Shown piece after piece: positions 29,193 through 46,212 of a stretch of 48,730 nucleotides of DNA. How positions within the stretch are numbered: position 1 is the stretch's first letter; each line of letters opens with the position of its first letter. Below the pieces are notes generated by a model that worked only from the letters and a program-made list of their open reading frames with translations, did no database searches and was not told where the DNA came from. Origin of the DNA: a virus; IMG/VR virus record IMGVR_UViG_3300013306_000020, positions 1 to 48,730 of that record. The stretch is one strand, 5' to 3'. The translations under genes were made by a program, and so were the position numbers.

Positions 29193-30105
29193 CAAGACCG
29201 GCATCGAGTGGACCGAGGCTACGTGGAACCCGACCACCGGGTGCGACCGCGTCTCGCCGGGCTGTGACCACTGCTACGCCCTCACCCTCGCGGGCCGCCT
29301 CAAGGCCATGGGCGCCAGCGCCTACCAGGAGGACGGCGACCCGAGGACCTCCGGCCCGGGGTTCAAGCTCACGGTGCACCCTGACCGGCTGGACGTGCCG
29401 CTCCGCTGGACGCGCCCGCGGTTCATCTTCGTCAACAGCATGTCGGACCTGTTCCACAAGGACGTCCCGGACGAGTTCATCGCCAAGGTGTTCGCCGTCA
29501 TGGCCCTCGCCCCCCGGCACACGTTCCAGGTCCTCACGAAGCGCCACGGCCGGATGCGTTCGCTGCTGTCGTCCGGCCGATTCGCGGACCTCGTTGTGGC
29601 CGCACTGTCGACGGTCGTGGACGAGACGTCCGGCCGGCTTCCCGCCAAGGACTTCGACGCCGCTTATGCGCACGTCACGGACAGGGTGCACGTGGACGAG
29701 CCGATGCCGCCGCTGCCGAACGTGTGGCTCGGCGTGTCCGTCGAGGATCAGAAGCGCGCCGACCTCCGCATCCCCGCGCTGCTCGCGACGCCGGCCGCGG
29801 TCCGGTTCCTCTCGTGCGAGCCGATCCTCGGACCCGTCAGCTTCCGATGGGCCAAGTGGGCGCCGCTCATCAACGCAGGCCACCTCGACGGCCTGCGCGG
29901 CATCGACTGGGTGATCGTCGGCGGCGAGTCCGGCCCGGGCCACCGCCCCATCGACCCTGAGTGGGTGCGCTCCCTCCGGGACCAGTGCTCCGACGCCGGA
30001 GTCGCGTTCCTCTTCAAGCAGTGGGGCGGCGCCACCCCGAAGGCCGGCGGCCGCGAGCTCGACGGTGTCACCCACGACGGCTACCCGGGAGCCGTCAGTG
30101 CGTGA
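29185..30105 (+). CDS. phage Gp37/Gp68 (DUF5131) family protein (306 aa)
   Basis: The protein begins TGIEWTEATWNPTTGCDRVSPGCDHCYA, the characteristic start of the Gp37/Gp68 family with a Cys cluster (Cx6CxxC) reminiscent of radical-SAM enzymes, and continues with FVNSMSDLFH, TFQVLTKR, NVWLGVSVEDQ, IDWVIVGGESGPGHRP and FLFKQWGG. The biochemical role is unsettled; a metal-dependent modification is plausible. GTG 29185, GAGGAGG upstream, overlaps the previous gene by 8 bp. Confidence 0.85.
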   Translation: MGDKTGIEWTEATWNPTTGCDRVSPGCDHCYALTLAGRLKAMGASAYQEDGDPRTSGPGFKLTVHPDRLDVPLRWTRPRFIFVNSMSDLFHKDVPDEFIAKVFAVMALAPRHTFQVLTKRHGRMRSLLSSGRFADLVVAALSTVVDETSGRLPAKDFDAAYAHVTDRVHVDEPMPPLPNVWLGVSVEDQKRADLRIPALLATPAAVRFLSCEPILGPVSFRWAKWAPLINAGHLDGLRGIDWVIVGGESGPGHRPIDPEWVRSLRDQCSDAGVAFLFKQWGGATPKAGGRELDGVTHDGYPGAVSA

Positions 30106-31132
30106 GCCCTACTTCCGCGACGAGCACGTCGAGCTGCACCACGGCGCCGCGCTCGACGTGCTCCGTGACCTGCCCGACGCGTCGGTCGGGTGCATCTTCA
30201 CGTCCCCGCCCTACTACGGCCTCCGCGCCTACGGCCACGACGAGCGCGAGCAGGGCACCGAGGAGACCGTCGCGGAGTTCGTCGGCGGTCTGCTCGAGGT
30301 GTTCCGTGAGGCCCGCCGGGTCCTCGCCGACGACGGCACCCTGTGGGTCAACCTCGGCGACACCTACTCGTCGAAGGCGAACGCCCGCAACACCGACGCC
30401 GGCAGGCTCGGGAAGGGCCACGCCCGCGTCCCCCAGCACGTGCAGGGGCAGCGGAACACCACCGCCGTCGCGCCGTACAAGAGCCTGCTCATGATCCCCG
30501 AGCGGTTCGCCCTGGCGATGACCGACGACGGGTGGCTGCTGCGGAACCGGGTGACGTGGGTCAAGACCAACGGCACCCCGGAGCCCGTGACCGACCGGTT
30601 CACCGCGAAGTCGGAGGCGATGTGGCTCTTCACCCCGGGCCCCCGCTACTGGTTCGACATCGACGCTGTCCGTGAGCCGCACACCTCGCGGCCGCAGCGG
30701 CGCCTCGCGAAGAAGGTCGACAAGGTGGGAAGGCCGGACGGCCAGTCGCCGCAGACGTGGGCGGCCATGACCGACCGGCCCGAACCTGCGCACGACGGCC
30801 ACCCCCTCGGCCGCAACCCCGGAGACTCGTGGGTCGTCGACGACGAGGACCCGGCACAGTTCATGGACGAGGTGTGGCGCATCCCCAACCGCCCCTTCCC
30901 CGGCGCGCACTTCGCTGTCATGAACCCCGACGTCGCCCGCCGCGCGATCAAGGCCGGGTGCAAGCCTGGAGCGGCCGTCCTCGACCCGTACTCCGGGTCC
31001 GGCACCACCGGCATGGTCGCGGCCGAGCTCGGCCACCCCTACGTCGGGATCGAGCTCTACGAGAAGTACCTCGACCTGTCGCTGCGCACCCGCCTCGCAC
31101 AGTCGTCCCTGCTGCTGGGGGAGGGCGCGTGA
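30098..31132 (+). CDS. DNA N4/N6-type methyltransferase (344 aa)
   Basis: Catalytic motif TSPPYYGLR (about 35-43) lies before the SAM-binding motif LDPYSGSGTTGMVA (about 294-307), the order of beta-class amino-methyltransferases acting on adenine N6 or cytosine N4. VWRIPNRPFPGAHFAVMN is also typical. No restriction enzyme is adjacent, so it is probably a solitary phage enzyme protecting DNA. GTG 30098 overlaps the Gp37/68-like gene by 8 bp. Confidence 0.9.
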   Translation: MREPYFRDEHVELHHGAALDVLRDLPDASVGCIFTSPPYYGLRAYGHDEREQGTEETVAEFVGGLLEVFREARRVLADDGTLWVNLGDTYSSKANARNTDAGRLGKGHARVPQHVQGQRNTTAVAPYKSLLMIPERFALAMTDDGWLLRNRVTWVKTNGTPEPVTDRFTAKSEAMWLFTPGPRYWFDIDAVREPHTSRPQRRLAKKVDKVGRPDGQSPQTWAAMTDRPEPAHDGHPLGRNPGDSWVVDDEDPAQFMDEVWRIPNRPFPGAHFAVMNPDVARRAIKAGCKPGAAVLDPYSGSGTTGMVAAELGHPYVGIELYEKYLDLSLRTRLAQSSLLLGEGA

Positions 31133-33126: not shown

Positions 33127-33131
33127 CTGTG

Positions 33132-33782
33132 GTGACCGGCGCCTCTCGCATTCCCACCGCACCTCGACGCATCGAGTACGTGCGGCTCTGCGACATCGTC
33201 CCCGCGATCAGGAATCCGAAGAGCCACGACCTGCCCGCCCTCATCCACTCGGTGAAGTCCCACGGGTACGCCGACGCCGCGATCCTCGACGAACGCACCC
33301 ACCGGCTCGTCGCCGGCCACGGCCGCACTGCCGCCCTGGTCGCGATGAAGTCCTACGGCGACAACGTCCCCGACGGGATCATGCTCGACGAGGACGGCGA
33401 GTGGCTCGTCCCCGTGCAGCGCGGGTGGGCGTCGATCGACGACGCGCACGCCGAGGCCTTCATCATCGAGCACAACCACGTCTCCGAGTCCGGCGGCTGG
33501 CTCGAGGGGATGCTCGTCGACATGCTCCACGACGTGCACGTCGTCGAGCCCGAGCTGTTCGCCGACATGTCGTTCGGCGCCGACGAGCTCGACGACCTGT
33601 TCCGCCGCAACGACCCCGCCCGGCTCGACAAGGACCCCGACGATCCCGACGAGCCGTTCGTCGACCCGGGCCAGGACGACACCGACGACACGTCCCTCGA
33701 CGACGTCTCCACGCCGCGCGAGAAGCGCATCGTCACCTGCCCCTGCTGCTTCCACGAGTTCGTTCCCGGAGAGGACCTCTGA
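33132..33782 (+). CDS. ParB-like nuclease-domain protein (216 aa)
   Basis: The N-terminal domain fits the ParB/sulfiredoxin fold: VRLCDIVPAIRNPKSHDLPALIHSVKSHGYADAAILDERTHRLVAGHGRTAAL, with GHGR at about 62-65. Then comes an acidic Asp-rich stretch and a C-terminal CPCC zinc-like motif (IVTCPCCFHEF). In actinophages such proteins sit beside terminase genes, as here. GTG 33132 or GTG 33129 may be used; the former fits the promoter spacing. Confidence 0.8.
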   Translation: MTGASRIPTAPRRIEYVRLCDIVPAIRNPKSHDLPALIHSVKSHGYADAAILDERTHRLVAGHGRTAALVAMKSYGDNVPDGIMLDEDGEWLVPVQRGWASIDDAHAEAFIIEHNHVSESGGWLEGMLVDMLHDVHVVEPELFADMSFGADELDDLFRRNDPARLDKDPDDPDEPFVDPGQDDTDDTSLDDVSTPREKRIVTCPCCFHEFVPGEDL

Positions 33783-33784
33783 CC

Positions 33785-34405
33785 ATGCCCCGACGCCGTT
33801 CACGCCGCGAACCCGGCCGCCCGACCCTGCTCGACAAGGACGTCGAGAAGAAGCTCATCGAGGCCACGAAGATCGGCGCCCCCATGAACGCCGCGGCCGC
33901 GTACTGCGGCATCAGCGTCCGCGCCTTCGAGGACTGGATGCGCCGCGGTCACACCGAGCAGGGCAGCATCGACGACGGCGCCGAGCCGGATCCCGTCGAG
34001 GCGAAGTACCTCGCGCTCTACAAGGCGATCGTCGAGGCCCGCGCGCACGCCTCAGTCGCGTCGGTCGGCCTGATCCGCAAGGCTGCCGTCGGCGGGCAGG
34101 TCACCGAGACCACGACCCGCCGCTACCGCGACGCCGCCGGCGACCTCGTCGAGGAGACCACGGAGAAGCGCACGAGCGGCGACTGGAAGGCTGCTGCGTG
34201 GTGGCTCGAGCGGCAGAACCGCTCCGACTTTGGCAAGGAGACCACCGTCAACCAGAACGTCTCCGGTCAGGTCACGGCCGTCGTCAATGCCGACGAGGTC
34301 GCCGCCCGCATCAGCGCCAACACCGCCCGGGCTCTCGAGCTCGCCGCGATCGAGGCGGGCCCCGCAGGCGACGGCGACCCCGTCGACGCCGAAGTCGTCG
34401 AGTGA
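33785..34405 (+). CDS. terminase small subunit-like protein (206 aa)
   Basis: After a basic start (RRRSRREPGRPTLLDKDVEKKLIEATKIG) there is a helix-turn-helix (MNAAAAYCGISVRAFEDWMRRG) as in small terminases, then conserved SGDWKAAAWWLERQNRSDFGK, a phrase I associate with phage small terminase or packaging HTH proteins. It would recognise phage DNA for packaging. It lies 2 bp after the ParB-like gene under the same late promoter. The large subunit is not beside it. Confidence 0.75.
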   Translation: MPRRRSRREPGRPTLLDKDVEKKLIEATKIGAPMNAAAAYCGISVRAFEDWMRRGHTEQGSIDDGAEPDPVEAKYLALYKAIVEARAHASVASVGLIRKAAVGGQVTETTTRRYRDAAGDLVEETTEKRTSGDWKAAAWWLERQNRSDFGKETTVNQNVSGQVTAVVNADEVAARISANTARALELAAIEAGPAGDGDPVDAEVVE

Positions 34406-34854: not shown

Positions 34855-35433
34855 ATGGCTGGCGACACCGTCATCACCATCATCGGCAACCTGACTGCCG
34901 ACCCCGAACTTCGCTTCACCCCGTCCGGCGCGGCCGTCGCGAACTTCACCATCGCGTCGACGCCCCGCCAGTTCGACCGCCAGAGCAACGAGTGGAAGGA
35001 CGGCGAGACGCTCTTCATGCGCTGCTCCGTGTGGCGCGACGCCGCCGAGAACGTCGCCGAGTCGTGCCAGCGCGGCATGCGCGTCATCGTCTCCGGCCGC
35101 CTCAAGTCCCGCTCGTACGAGACCAAGGAGGGCGAGAAGCGCACCGTCATCGAGATGGACGTCGACGAGATCGGCCCGTCCCTCAAGAGCGCGACGGCCA
35201 AGGTCACCAAGGCGCAGCGCCAGGGCAACGGCCAGTCCGGCTTCGGCGGCGGCGCCGGCGGCGACGGCTCCGACCCGTGGACCACCGGTGGCGGCGCTCA
35301 GGGCGGCCAGCAGGGCAACGGCGGAGGCTGGGGCGGACAGGCGCAGAGCCAGCCGCAGAGCCAGCCGCAGGGCGGCCAGCAGGGCGGCGGATGGGGCGGC
35401 GCGCAGCCGTCCTACGACGAGCCCCCGTTCTGA
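34855..35433 (+). CDS. ssb: single-stranded DNA-binding protein (192 aa)
   Basis: An N-terminal OB fold (1-110) has [29 protein letters not shown] and [51 protein letters not shown], the classic bacterial SSB pattern. A Gly/Gln-rich flexible linker (about 120-185) leads to the acidic tip DEPPF, which docks partner enzymes. It coats ssDNA in replication and ERF-mediated recombination. It has its own promoter and terminator. Confidence 0.95.
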
Positions 35434-35493: not shown

Positions 35494-36741
35494 TCAGAGA
35501 CCGATGAAGATGCCCGGCAGGCTGATCGTCACCGACACCTTCGCCCCGGTCTGCATGGGCTCCTCGGACGGTGTCGGCTCCGGCTCGGGCGCCGGTGCCG
35601 GGGTGCCCGTATCGGCAGCGGGCGCCTGCGTCTGTGTCGGTGCAGGGTCAGGGTCGGGGGAGGGCGCTGGCCTCCCGGCCTCGTCAGGAGCCGCAGGAGC
35701 CTCCGTGGCGGGCTGGGACGGCTCCTCGGGCACCGGCGCGCCCGGACCGGCCTGTGACGGCTCCACGGTCCGTGTGGGCCCCTCGCCCGTCGGCCACGGC
35801 ACGAGCGACGTCGGCATCTTCGTCGGCCACTCCTCGAACGGGTTGCGGCCAGGGGTTGCAGGCTTGCCCGTCGGGAACGTCCTGACGCCGTCGAGCACCG
35901 AGTCATCGACCGCGCCAGCGAGGTCGGCCATGACGTCCGGGTCCGTCGCGCCAACGAGCACCCGGTCACGCGACGACATCACCGGGTAGAGCCGCTGATA
36001 GCCGGCGAGCTGCGGGAACGCCTTGCGCTCCTCCGCGGAGTCGAAGATCCACACCACGGCCATCTCCGACCCGTGGGAGAACCGGAACGACGTCGGGTCC
36101 TCGTCGACGCCCTCGTATGCCGTCACCTTCCAGATCGTGCCCTCGGCCACGTTGCGGCACTCGGCCGACGTCTCCGACTGCACCGTGCACTGGAAGTTCG
36201 CGGCCCGCGCGAGCTCGGTGAACTCAGGACTGTCGAACGGCGACGAGTTCAGCGACGACAGAAGCGAATACACGCCCAGCGAGAGCGCCGCGACCCCTGT
36301 CACGACCGCACCCGCGAGGATGCGGACGCGGCGCTTGCTCATCGGGACGGTGTCGGCTTCCACCGCGCCACGCACCCAGTCGGGGGAGGAGCCGTGGAGT
36401 TCTCGAGACAGGTTCTCCAGCGACGGCGCGTTCGGCATCGCGGCCCGCACCACGCGGATGATGTCGTCGGGGTGCTCCGACGGGAACAGCTTGGACAGCT
36501 GCTCGACCGCGTTCTCGTGCGACTGGCCGGCGCGCAGGATGATGAGGTGCCCGACCCGGACGGCGTCGACGGTCTCCTCGGGGGCGACGATCGCGTCGAA
36601 CTCAGGGTGCGGGGTGCGCAGCGGCGAGTCAGGGTCGTGCGGGCCGCAGGTGAAGCAGGCGCAACCGAACGGGTGGTCGACGATGACCTCGAACTCGTCG
36701 AGGATCGACCTTCTGCCTGGGGCAGTGGGCGGCGCCGTCAC
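35494..36741 (-). CDS. single-pass membrane protein, possible anti-sigma factor (415 aa)
   Basis: The N-terminal 139 residues are cytoplasmic-type and carry a Cys/His cluster, HPFGCACFTCGPH (His 23, Cys 27, 29, 32, His 35), like a variant zinc anti-sigma motif. One transmembrane helix lies at about 140-164. The outer part has about 120 residues of globular sequence (CTVQSETSAECRN, VWIFDSAEERKAFPQ), then a long Pro/Glu/Thr-rich linker and a short hydrophobic end. Topology, operon order after a sigma gene and GTGA coupling all suggest a membrane anti-sigma or sensor. Direct homology is not recognised. Confidence 0.7.
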   Translation of the reverse strand: MTAPPTAPGRRSILDEFEVIVDHPFGCACFTCGPHDPDSPLRTPHPEFDAIVAPEETVDAVRVGHLIILRAGQSHENAVEQLSKLFPSEHPDDIIRVVRAAMPNAPSLENLSRELHGSSPDWVRGAVEADTVPMSKRRVRILAGAVVTGVAALSLGVYSLLSSLNSSPFDSPEFTELARAANFQCTVQSETSAECRNVAEGTIWKVTAYEGVDEDPTSFRFSHGSEMAVVWIFDSAEERKAFPQLAGYQRLYPVMSSRDRVLVGATDPDVMADLAGAVDDSVLDGVRTFPTGKPATPGRNPFEEWPTKMPTSLVPWPTGEGPTRTVEPSQAGPGAPVPEEPSQPATEAPAAPDEAGRPAPSPDPDPAPTQTQAPAADTGTPAPAPEPEPTPSEEPMQTGAKVSVTISLPGIFIGL

Positions 36742-37127
36742 TGCTTTCGCTCGGCTGCGTGCGCGGCGGCAAGGGTCGCGTACCGGGCCGCGACTCGAGC
36801 AGCCTTCGCCGGGTCGATCGCGTCGATGTCGGCCAGCTGCACCGGGACGTCGTTGAGGACCATCACCAGGGGAGCGTGCTCGGGCAGCTCGGCGGTGCCC
36901 TCGTCGTCGTTGTTGCGGACGGCGAGGTCTGTGCCGCGAGCGAACTCGCGCAGCGCGACGTCCAGAACGCGACGACGGTGCGGCTCGCTCTGCGTGGTCG
37001 AAGCGTCAGGGGTGAGAGCAAGGGCCGCGGTGCGCAGCCGGTGACCGGAGCGCGTGGCCGGGCCAGTCAGGTTGTCGAGGACCTCAGCGGCTTGCTCGTT
37101 CGTGAGACGTTGACGTCGTCCGAACAT
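36738..37127 (-). CDS. small protein coupled to the sigma factor (129 aa)
   Basis: It is helical and basic at the N-terminus (MFGRRQRLTNEQAAEVLDNLTG), with a hydrophobic middle (PLVMVLNDVPVQLADIDAIDP) and an Ala-rich helix at the end. No family is recognised. ATG 37127 with AAAGG upstream is chosen; a GTG at 37136 is possible. It overlaps the sigma gene by 44 bp and the next gene by GTGA, so the three are expressed together. It may help control the sigma factor. Confidence 0.7.
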   Translation of the reverse strand: MFGRRQRLTNEQAAEVLDNLTGPATRSGHRLRTAALALTPDASTTQSEPHRRRVLDVALREFARGTDLAVRNNDDEGTAELPEHAPLVMVLNDVPVQLADIDAIDPAKAARVAARYATLAAAHAAERKQ

Positions 37128-37740
37128 TCGAAGCACCTTTCTCAGTGACGCCGACCATGCTCACGCGGGCGTGAGAGGCGGGGATCGCCTTCTCGAGGAC
37201 TCGCATGGCGCGGTGCTGGATGACCTTGACGTTGGATTCAGACAGCCCCGTGGTGGCGGCAGTCTCTAGAACAGAGAACCGATGGAAGAACCGAAGGGTT
37301 ACGACTTCCGCGTCTCGTTTTGACAGCTTGCCCAGCGCGGCGGCGACGACACGCCGGGTTTCCTCGGCCAGGGCGTCATCCTCCGGTCCCGCCATACCCG
37401 TTGGGGCGTCGAGGGAGAGCATCGACTCGGTGGGGATCTCGCGGATGGGCGCCCGGTACGCCGACCGGATGGTGTTGGCGGCGATCGTCACGAGCCACTT
37501 GATGAAGCCGTGGCCGGTCGATTGGTAGGTGTGGATCGACCTCGCGACCTTCGCCCACACCTCGCCGGTGATGTCCTCGGCAGCGTGGTGTGTCCCCACC
37601 CGGACGTAGACCCAGCGGTAGATGTCGTCGGCGTATCGCTCGTAGAGGGCGCCGAACGCGTCGCGGTCACCAGCAGCAGCGGCGACTGCGACGGCTTCGA
37701 AATCCGAAGCAGGGTCCTGCGTGGCGCGTGCAAGCGTCAT
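37084..37740 (-). CDS. ECF-type RNA polymerase sigma factor (218 aa)
   Basis: Region 2 spans about 25-97 (AFGALYERYADDIYRWVYVRVGTHHAAEDITGEVWAKV ... FIKWLVTIAANTIRSAYR) and region 4 about 127-185 (LGKLSKRDAEVVTLRFFHRFSVLETAATTGLSESNVKVIQHRAMRVL), with no region 3: an extracytoplasmic-function-like sigma70 protein. It would redirect host RNA polymerase. ATG 37740 is preferred (AGGAG 12 nt upstream); in-frame upstream starts up to 37839 exist. A weak minus-strand -10 TACGTC is at 37795-37800. A sigma factor with its own operon in a phage is uncommon. Confidence 0.9.
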   Translation of the reverse strand: MTLARATQDPASDFEAVAVAAAAGDRDAFGALYERYADDIYRWVYVRVGTHHAAEDITGEVWAKVARSIHTYQSTGHGFIKWLVTIAANTIRSAYRAPIREIPTESMLSLDAPTGMAGPEDDALAEETRRVVAAALGKLSKRDAEVVTLRFFHRFSVLETAATTGLSESNVKVIQHRAMRVLEKAIPASHARVSMVGVTEKGASNVRTTSTSHERASR

Positions 37741-45127: not shown

Positions 45128-45184
45128 TTGACCCCAACAAGTGCATACCAGCTAACTGGGTAGTGCGCGGCAGAAGCGGCCGCG
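45128..45184 (+). promoter_or_regulatory. early-type promoter with hairpin leader
   Basis: TTGACC (45128-45133), 19 bp, TAACTG (45153-45158), a loose match. Hairpin CGCGGC-AGAAGCG-GCCGCG (45166-45184) has a stem unlike the other copies but keeps the AAGCG loop. GGAAG and ATG 45214 follow. Confidence 0.6.
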
Positions 45185-45213
45185 AACCGCCACTCAGGAA
45201 GCGACCCGCCACC

Positions 45214-46212
45214 ATGAGCACCTATGCACTCGACGCCACGTTCGCGTCCCTCTTCTCCGGCATCGCCGGACTCGACTGGGGCCTGCACCGCCGGATGCGC
45301 TGCACCGCCATGGTCGAGAAGAACGAGCACGCACGCACCATCCTGAGCCGGCACTTCCCCGACACCCCGCTCTTGGAGGACGTGCAGCATGTCAACGGAT
45401 CAGACCTCGGCAACCCAACTGTCCTTGCTGGAGGGTTTCCCTGCAAGCAGACCAGCAAGGGAGCCACGACCCGAACCGGGCTCCACGGCAAGGACTCTGG
45501 CCTCTTCTACGAGCAGATCAGGCTCATCGACGAGGCCCGACCCGAGTGGGTCGTCATCGAGAATCCCGACGGGGTTCTCACCAGTAACGGCGGCCGCGAT
45601 TGGTGGCACGCGCAAAATTCGGTGGGGGACCTCGGGTATGGGTACGCGTGGCGCCTGCTGGACGGGGGACACCTTGACACCCTCCAGGAACGGCCGCGCC
45701 TCATCTTGGTCGGACATTCTTCAGGAGACCCCGCCCGAGCACTCGAAGTGCTGGATGACTCCTTCGCTGGCCCGGAAGTTCCTGCCACGGTTGCTCTCCC
45801 CGGGTCCCGAGAGGGTCGATCCCGAGCTGCTCGCGATCACGGAGACGGTGGCCGCGAGGCCCTGACGGTCTGGCGCAAGAGCGCGAACGCCCGCGCCGCG
45901 ATCGAGGCAGGCGGCTGGGAGACGTGGGTGCGGTCCGAGACGGCCAACACCCTCGCCGGGTTCGACCAGGGCGGCCCGCTCCGTCAGAAGCACCTGCTCC
46001 CCGACAACGGCGGCCTCCGCACCCTGACCCTCACCGAGTGGGAGCGGCTCTGCGGCTTCCCCGACGACTGGACGGCCGGCATCCCTGACGGGCAGCGGTT
46101 CCTCGCGCTTGGCAACTGCGTGCACACGACGCTGGGGGAGTGGATCGGCTCCCGCCTCGCGTCGGTCATCGCCCGCGACCACGGCATGGTCCGGGTGGCT
46201 GTCCCCGCCTGA
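45214..46212 (+). CDS. dcm: DNA cytosine-C5 methyltransferase (332 aa)
   Basis: Motif I ATFASLFSGIAGLDWGL (SAM binding), motif IV GGFPCKQTS with catalytic Cys at about 77, motif VI VVIENP (about 114-118), motif VIII-like ERPRLILVGH, and C-terminal LCGFPDDWT and ALGNCV. The order is normal for C5 methyltransferases. The target recognition part (about 190-270) is short. It probably methylates phage DNA to escape host restriction. An overlapping ORF lies in another frame from 45389. Confidence 0.9.
   Translation: MSTYALDATFASLFSGIAGLDWGLHRRMRCTAMVEKNEHARTILSRHFPDTPLLEDVQHVNGSDLGNPTVLAGGFPCKQTSKGATTRTGLHGKDSGLFYEQIRLIDEARPEWVVIENPDGVLTSNGGRDWWHAQNSVGDLGYGYAWRLLDGGHLDTLQERPRLILVGHSSGDPARALEVLDDSFAGPEVPATVALPGSREGRSRAARDHGDGGREALTVWRKSANARAAIEAGGWETWVRSETANTLAGFDQGGPLRQKHLLPDNGGLRTLTLTEWERLCGFPDDWTAGIPDGQRFLALGNCVHTTLGEWIGSRLASVIARDHGMVRVAVPA
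45389..45865 (+). CDS. ORF overlapping the C5 methyltransferase gene (158 aa, other frame)
   Basis: It starts MSTDQTSATQLSLLEGFPASRP and contains WGTSGMGTRGACW and SSWSDILQETPP. These phrases resemble predicted phage proteins I recall lying in the alternative frame of C5 methyltransferase genes. GGAGG stands 8 bp before ATG 45389. It may be a true overlapping gene or a shadow ORF; the evidence is the strong start signal plus remembered similarity. Confidence 0.35.
   Translation: MSTDQTSATQLSLLEGFPASRPAREPRPEPGSTARTLASSTSRSGSSTRPDPSGSSSRIPTGFSPVTAAAIGGTRKIRWGTSGMGTRGACWTGDTLTPSRNGRASSWSDILQETPPEHSKCWMTPSLARKFLPRLLSPGPERVDPELLAITETVAARP

Follow-up and report, generated by a model that had tools for sequence, protein, structure and literature searches.

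A virus record of 48,730 bases, analysed over its whole length and called the window below, encodes an ECF sigma factor followed by a small protein and a membrane protein. This arrangement raises two questions: which of the two partners would keep the sigma factor inactive, and to which signal and which genes such a circuit would be tied. Prophages are usually thought to sense their host by cytoplasmic cues such as DNA damage, peptides or repressor proteolysis. A conserved three-gene set of this kind, carried by some temperate phages of Streptomyces-like bacteria, suggests a virus whose gene expression is tied to the condition of the cell envelope.

Layout of the operon and its relatives

The three genes form an operon on the minus strand, in which the ECF sigma gene is followed by the genes of a 132-residue protein and of a 415-residue single-pass membrane protein, each overlapping the next. 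The features of the locus are the following.

37084..37740, minus strand: ECF sigma factor, 218 aa, BldN-like, with regions 2 and 4 (Pfam, TIGR02952, PDB profile match)
36738..37136, minus strand: middle protein of 132 aa, probably a free-standing anti-sigma factor of the RsbN type (ASDIII) (profile match to DUF5667/RsbN N-terminal domains)
35494..36741, minus strand: 415-aa single-pass membrane protein, probable sensor or tether partner (Gilgamesh gp90 homolog; model)
36637..36675, minus strand: HPFGCACFTCGPH, residues 23-35 of the membrane protein, window only
36397..36561, minus strand: conserved cytoplasmic domain of the family, a hairpin with three helices (residues 61-115)
36253..36318, minus strand: transmembrane helix, residues 142-163
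35881..36243, minus strand: ectodomain, residues 167-287, mostly pLDDT 93-95, invariant Cys185/Cys195
35494..35868, minus strand: residues 292-415, a tail rich in Pro with a hydrophobic peptide at the C terminus
34855..35433, plus strand: single-strand DNA-binding protein (ssb), convergent neighbour conserved in the family (Pfam SSB 9e-32)

The initial annotation had described a complete sigma protein with regions 2 and 4, coupled overlaps between the three genes and a single-pass membrane protein with a Cys/His motif on its cytoplasmic end, and these descriptions are in agreement with our results. Both sigma regions were recovered with Pfam (Sigma70_r2, 3e-13; Sigma70_r4, 7e-11). The middle gene starts at GTG 37136 or at ATG 37127, giving an overlap with the sigma gene of 53 nt or 44 nt, respectively, and its stop codon shares a 4-nt overlap (GTGA) with the GTG start of the membrane-protein gene. 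A single hydrophobic helix is present in the membrane protein, and HPFGCACFTCGPH occupies its residues 23-35.

The 129-kb Streptomyces phage Gilgamesh is a relative of the window, whose exonuclease (265-1827) has Gilgamesh gp55 as its best match (51% identical). The order sigma-132aa-415aa-ssb is that of gp92-gp91-gp90-gp89, with alignment identities of 32% for the sigma factor, 26% for the middle protein and 31% for the membrane protein; all three pairs are significant in two-sequence BLAST. From the exonuclease match, the shared order and these alignments, the window therefore seems to represent a portion of a larger phage resembling Gilgamesh, and its gene content and local synteny place it among the Gilgamesh-type phages and phage-plasmids. 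The ssb gene occupies the equivalent position in Gilgamesh and many relatives. No DNA-level relative of the window was found in the phage collection and single-protein pattern scans with the window proteins returned nothing, the family being reached through Gilgamesh-type alignments.

A search with the aligned membrane proteins of four Streptomyces records recovered 16 GTDB contigs and 25 IMG/VR contigs, and in every locus long enough the sigma and middle genes lie upstream of the membrane gene in unchanged order. The sigma and middle genes overlap by 17-26 nt in 47/47 tabulated loci, as is typical of coupled sigma/anti-sigma pairs, and the middle and membrane genes often by 4 nt. The cassette is no one-off and recurs with the same order in Gilgamesh, in Streptomyces phage-plasmids, in chromosomal prophages and in IMG/VR contigs. 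The circular record CP108533 (129.7 kb) carries the three genes and is a phage-plasmid, since portal, major capsid and ParA genes accompany them; the cassette is also found in six further plasmid records of Streptomyces, 125-133 kb in length. Homologs of all three genes, in constant order, are thus present in every locus that reaches far enough, and the operon is beyond chance. A clear copy was found in nine of the 393 sampled Streptomyces genomes (one each; two weak matches were left out), and a class-wide sample of 395 genomes yielded one other credible relative, a membrane protein with neither a sigma nor a middle gene in the 15 kb read. For G169 (locus L112, 6914-8875), a distant relative of the membrane protein with neither partner gene over 15 kb, an HTH-like ORF is present just upstream; the membrane protein may act together with regulators of another kind.

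The sigma factor and the middle protein

The sigma factor (37740-37084) scored 90.9 bits against the sigma70-ECF model TIGR02937 (cut-off 42.9), with both Pfam regions above their gathering scores, and 120.6 bits against the BldN family TIGR02952, below the curated cut-off of 206 bits. The top solved structure for the sigma-family profile was BldN in the RsbN-BldN crystal structure (6dxo_A, 3e-38). In the sigma tree, the phage proteins group together, the window branch is long and the placement among host families is without resolution; the phage sigma factors are not placed with BldN itself. Judged from these comparisons, the protein is a relative of BldN and not BldN proper.

The host BldN gene is followed by that of RsbN, a DUF5667 protein. 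More generally, actinobacterial DUF5667 proteins, RsbN included, are mostly encoded downstream of BldN-type sigma factors and have N-terminal domains of like design. The middle-protein family (48 distinct sequences) displays an N-terminal helical pattern, ERLERALdGGPxPHDxxTRrxLAAAGALxPG..RspaRV..t.eAMLreF.R, and its profile was compared with that of the RsbN/DUF5667 N-terminal domain by hhalign. The score was 36.8 (P 6e-6), against 8.2 for the reversed profile, at most 12.6 for 60 column shuffles, which preserve composition, and at most 16.0 for 69 decoy families taken from the same GC-rich loci. The homology rests on this profile-profile comparison because the middle-protein profile gives chance hits of about 20 bits genome-wide. 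The sole clear match in the genome-wide search (G001) was the phage copy itself; four weaker matches, an ABC transporter and spurious frames, were rejected as chance.

For both the middle and the membrane proteins, Pfam, PHROGs and NCBIfam returned no credible family and the PDB sequence profiles no credible match. The low-confidence model of the middle protein contains helices at 13-21, 29-40 and 51-74, followed by a hairpin and a long helix; a fold search with it returned no RsbN among its rows, at a pLDDT too low for the result to be weighed.

Compared with the ASDIII class, the 132-aa protein has, by profile, an RsbN-homologous N-terminal helical domain, and its gene lies directly 3' of a BldN-type sigma gene in all loci extending far enough. 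A membrane helix and DUF5667 on the same polypeptide were not found, the protein being soluble. On this sequence evidence the middle protein, rather than the zinc-like motif of the membrane protein, is the likely sigma blocker, and the gene product passed over in the initial annotation as a small protein would be the key component of the module. The middle protein could instead be an adaptor, a chaperone or an anti-anti-sigma factor, its likeness to RsbN being a convergence of short helices rich in Arg, Ala and Leu. The shortness of the helical region, the low-confidence model and the 20-bit chance hits agree with such a role, but the composition-keeping shuffles and the GC-rich decoys stayed far under the observed score and the slot directly after a BldN-type sigma gene is that of RsbN, so that we consider it unlikely.

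We favour, with a probability of about 0.6, a split BldN-RsbN-type switch of three components, namely a sigma factor, a soluble anti-sigma factor and a separate membrane protein. The sigma factor, whose BldN-like ECF family is established by sequence, would direct host RNA polymerase to its promoters. The 132-aa protein, produced in step with it through the overlapping genes, would keep it inactive by means of the RsbN-type three-helix domain; the homology comes from profiles and binding is predicted from it. Region 4 of the sigma factor would be contacted by helices 1 and 2 and region 2 by helix 3, following the published mode of ASDIII domains as given in a passage that exchanges the names BldN and RsbN (PMC7406223). 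The membrane protein probably binds the anti-sigma factor, perhaps at the C-terminal hairpin and helix of the latter, and upon an envelope signal it may release or tighten the grip on the sigma factor. A temperate phage or phage-plasmid could in this way couple its lysogeny or lysis genes, or genes of its host, to the envelope or developmental state.

As in BldN-RsbN, the gene after a BldN-like sigma gene encodes an N-terminal helical domain of the RsbN type; in the phages, however, the anti-sigma domain is a stand-alone soluble protein, and the membrane protein is separately encoded, lacks a DUF5667 match and is unrelated in its cytoplasmic part. According to a review, soluble anti-sigma factors originated through separation from membrane-anchored ones (PMC8103513), which fits the split reading. 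The actinobacterial SigD-RsdA pair is similar in that a plasmid-borne sigma gene matched by tblastn has an RsdA gene directly after it, but it consists of two genes without a separate middle protein. Gilgamesh gp92-gp91-gp90 and phage-plasmids such as CP108533 share with the window the three homologous genes, their order, the overlaps and the ssb neighbour; they differ from it by identities of only about 26-32%, by the lack of a zinc-like motif and by a mostly different C-terminal peptide of the membrane protein. If the split reading is true, the ASDIII domain exists as a free-standing protein and the module offers a natural case for studying the separation of a sigma-binding domain from its membrane control part.

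The membrane protein and its Cys/His motif

The hydrophobic helix of the membrane protein spans residues about 142-163, and the N terminus should be inside because the basic stretch KRRVR just precedes it. The cytoplasmic domain was modelled as a hairpin and three helices, with a block pLDDT of about 90 over residues 71-100. The ectodomain (167-287) was modelled with high confidence, contains an invariant cysteine pair and is followed by the long Pro-rich tail. Fold comparison of the ectodomain gave weak likenesses that are no proof of family, to the START/Bet v1-like STK_08120 (Z 7.6) and to the ectodomain of M. tuberculosis PknH (Z 5.6); Foldseek returned no match for it at E 0.001. A search of the viral structure library gave no convincing match. 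The C-terminal end of most intact Streptomyces membrane proteins (L016-L056) is a conserved hydrophobic peptide with Trp, LLILDSAWTVAA, LLALPQAWIAPAA or SLEVLPTQWAAA; that of the window protein (35494-35550) is VTISLPGIFIGL.

In the model of the initial annotation, the membrane protein is itself the anti-sigma factor: its cytoplasmic end would bind the sigma factor with the help of a zinc cluster resembling that of the zinc anti-sigma (ZAS) proteins, the middle protein being an accessory. Membrane-anchored anti-sigma factors beside ECF sigma factors are the commonest arrangement (PMC8103513), and both the motif and the N-in topology are real. Like ZAS (class I, ASDI) proteins, the partner is encoded next to an ECF sigma factor and, in the window, carries a cytoplasmic Cys/His cluster. 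However, HPFGCACFTCGPH is restricted to the window protein, and the other members have 0-2 cysteines in their cytoplasmic parts; its spacing is H-x3-C-x-C-x2-C against H-x3-C-x2-C in ZAS; and it lies outside the helical domain, in a modelled loop (23-58) of pLDDT <50, after a short strand that perhaps matches the first strand of the homologs. The alignment is ambiguous at this point, with two candidates for the strand, EFEVIV and EFDAIV.

Since the motif is confined to the window, off the ZAS spacing and in a low-confidence loop, it is not an anti-sigma element, and its reading as a zinc anti-sigma cluster is abandoned. The motif may bind metal; it is not what makes the membrane-protein family work. 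Moreover, the cytoplasmic part scored 9.7 against the RsbN-type domain, within noise, and a better candidate, the middle protein, sits between the sigma and membrane genes. A membrane protein acting as the anti-sigma factor is accordingly improbable. The sigma/anti-sigma interpretation itself stands as regards the coupled operon with an ECF sigma factor and a likely pair; what falls is the zinc-like motif of the membrane protein as the blocking element.

Genomic setting and possible targets

The initial annotation had also tied the operon to late transcription. In the prophage L021, the cassette lies between a tyrosine integrase and ssb, endolysin, TerS and ParB genes, with a fatty acid desaturase, probably a host gene, beyond the integrase. 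In Gilgamesh, it is surrounded by HTH genes, a metalloprotease and ParA/ParB. The region is a lysogeny/partition region and not a late operon. ECF promoters (GGAAC/GTAAC with CGTC/CGTT) showed no clear enrichment when the window, Gilgamesh and a phage-plasmid were searched for them, and de novo paired words upstream of Gilgamesh genes showed a C-rich bias only. Because of this location and because no ECF promoter set was found, control of late transcription is unsupported. In the window, 33129-33782 encodes a ParB-like protein (PHROGs) and 33785-34405 is likely a TerS gene, read by analogy to L021; the two are partition/packaging neighbours as in Gilgamesh.

Upstream of the sigma gene, Gilgamesh and its close relatives share a conserved pair resembling -35 and -10 elements, gtgact-17-TATGCT, followed by the dyad GGAnGAnnnTCnTCC. 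Read by eye, this region resembles a promoter of the housekeeping type that has a control site of its own, and not a case of ECF autoregulation. The dyad occurs once in Gilgamesh and once in CP108533, and was rejected as a general repressor operator on the basis of these single copies in the two genomes scanned. In L002 and relatives (Gilgamesh about 86,809-86,850), the TATGCT -10-like element is followed by a dyad, GCGCCAnnGCGGAAGACGATCCTCC, with one copy per genome in the two scanned, a possible private operator or leader RNA element.

What the switch would control can be proposed more tentatively than its architecture. One possibility, which we hold to be less likely than not, is that temperate actinophages and phage-plasmids use the split sigma switch to read the envelope or developmental state of the host and so set lysogeny, induction or host BldN-type expression. 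Also less likely than not is that the main targets of the sigma factor are developmental or envelope promoters of the host rather than phage genes, and that the prophage therefore alters sporulation or the cell surface, for example blocking superinfection. This lysogenic reprogramming is compatible with the split BldN-RsbN mechanism, and the BldN-like sigma factor, the lysogeny region and the failure to find a promoter set in the three genomes scanned speak for it, as does the precedent of phage sigma factors that alter dormancy in Bacillus (PMC9429907). On the other hand, the tree does not put the phage proteins with BldN itself, the host of the window need not sporulate, and promoter scans are weak tests. 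The Bacillus proteins are likewise phage-encoded alternative sigma factors with a possible effect on host development, but they are of sporulation type and, the text of that paper names anti-sigma nowhere but in the title of a reference and mentions no membrane partner.

In the open-licence papers searched, these Bacillus dormancy factors were found, and neither a description of the three-gene module nor a membrane-gated sigma circuit in a phage was. If the split BldN-RsbN reading is true, the conserved module would link the cell surface directly to transcription of the phage or the host, and Gilgamesh, with S. lividans as host, makes it testable in a standard laboratory system.

Two further observations were made. 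The window encodes two distinct DNA methyltransferases, at 30065-31132 (phrog_67) and 45163-46212 (phrog_116). On Micromonosporaceae plasmids, Lsr2-like and GGDEF-annotated genes come after related sigma genes (L004, 6408-8435; L006, 6492-8492); this is another kind of sigma-linked cassette carried by mobile elements.
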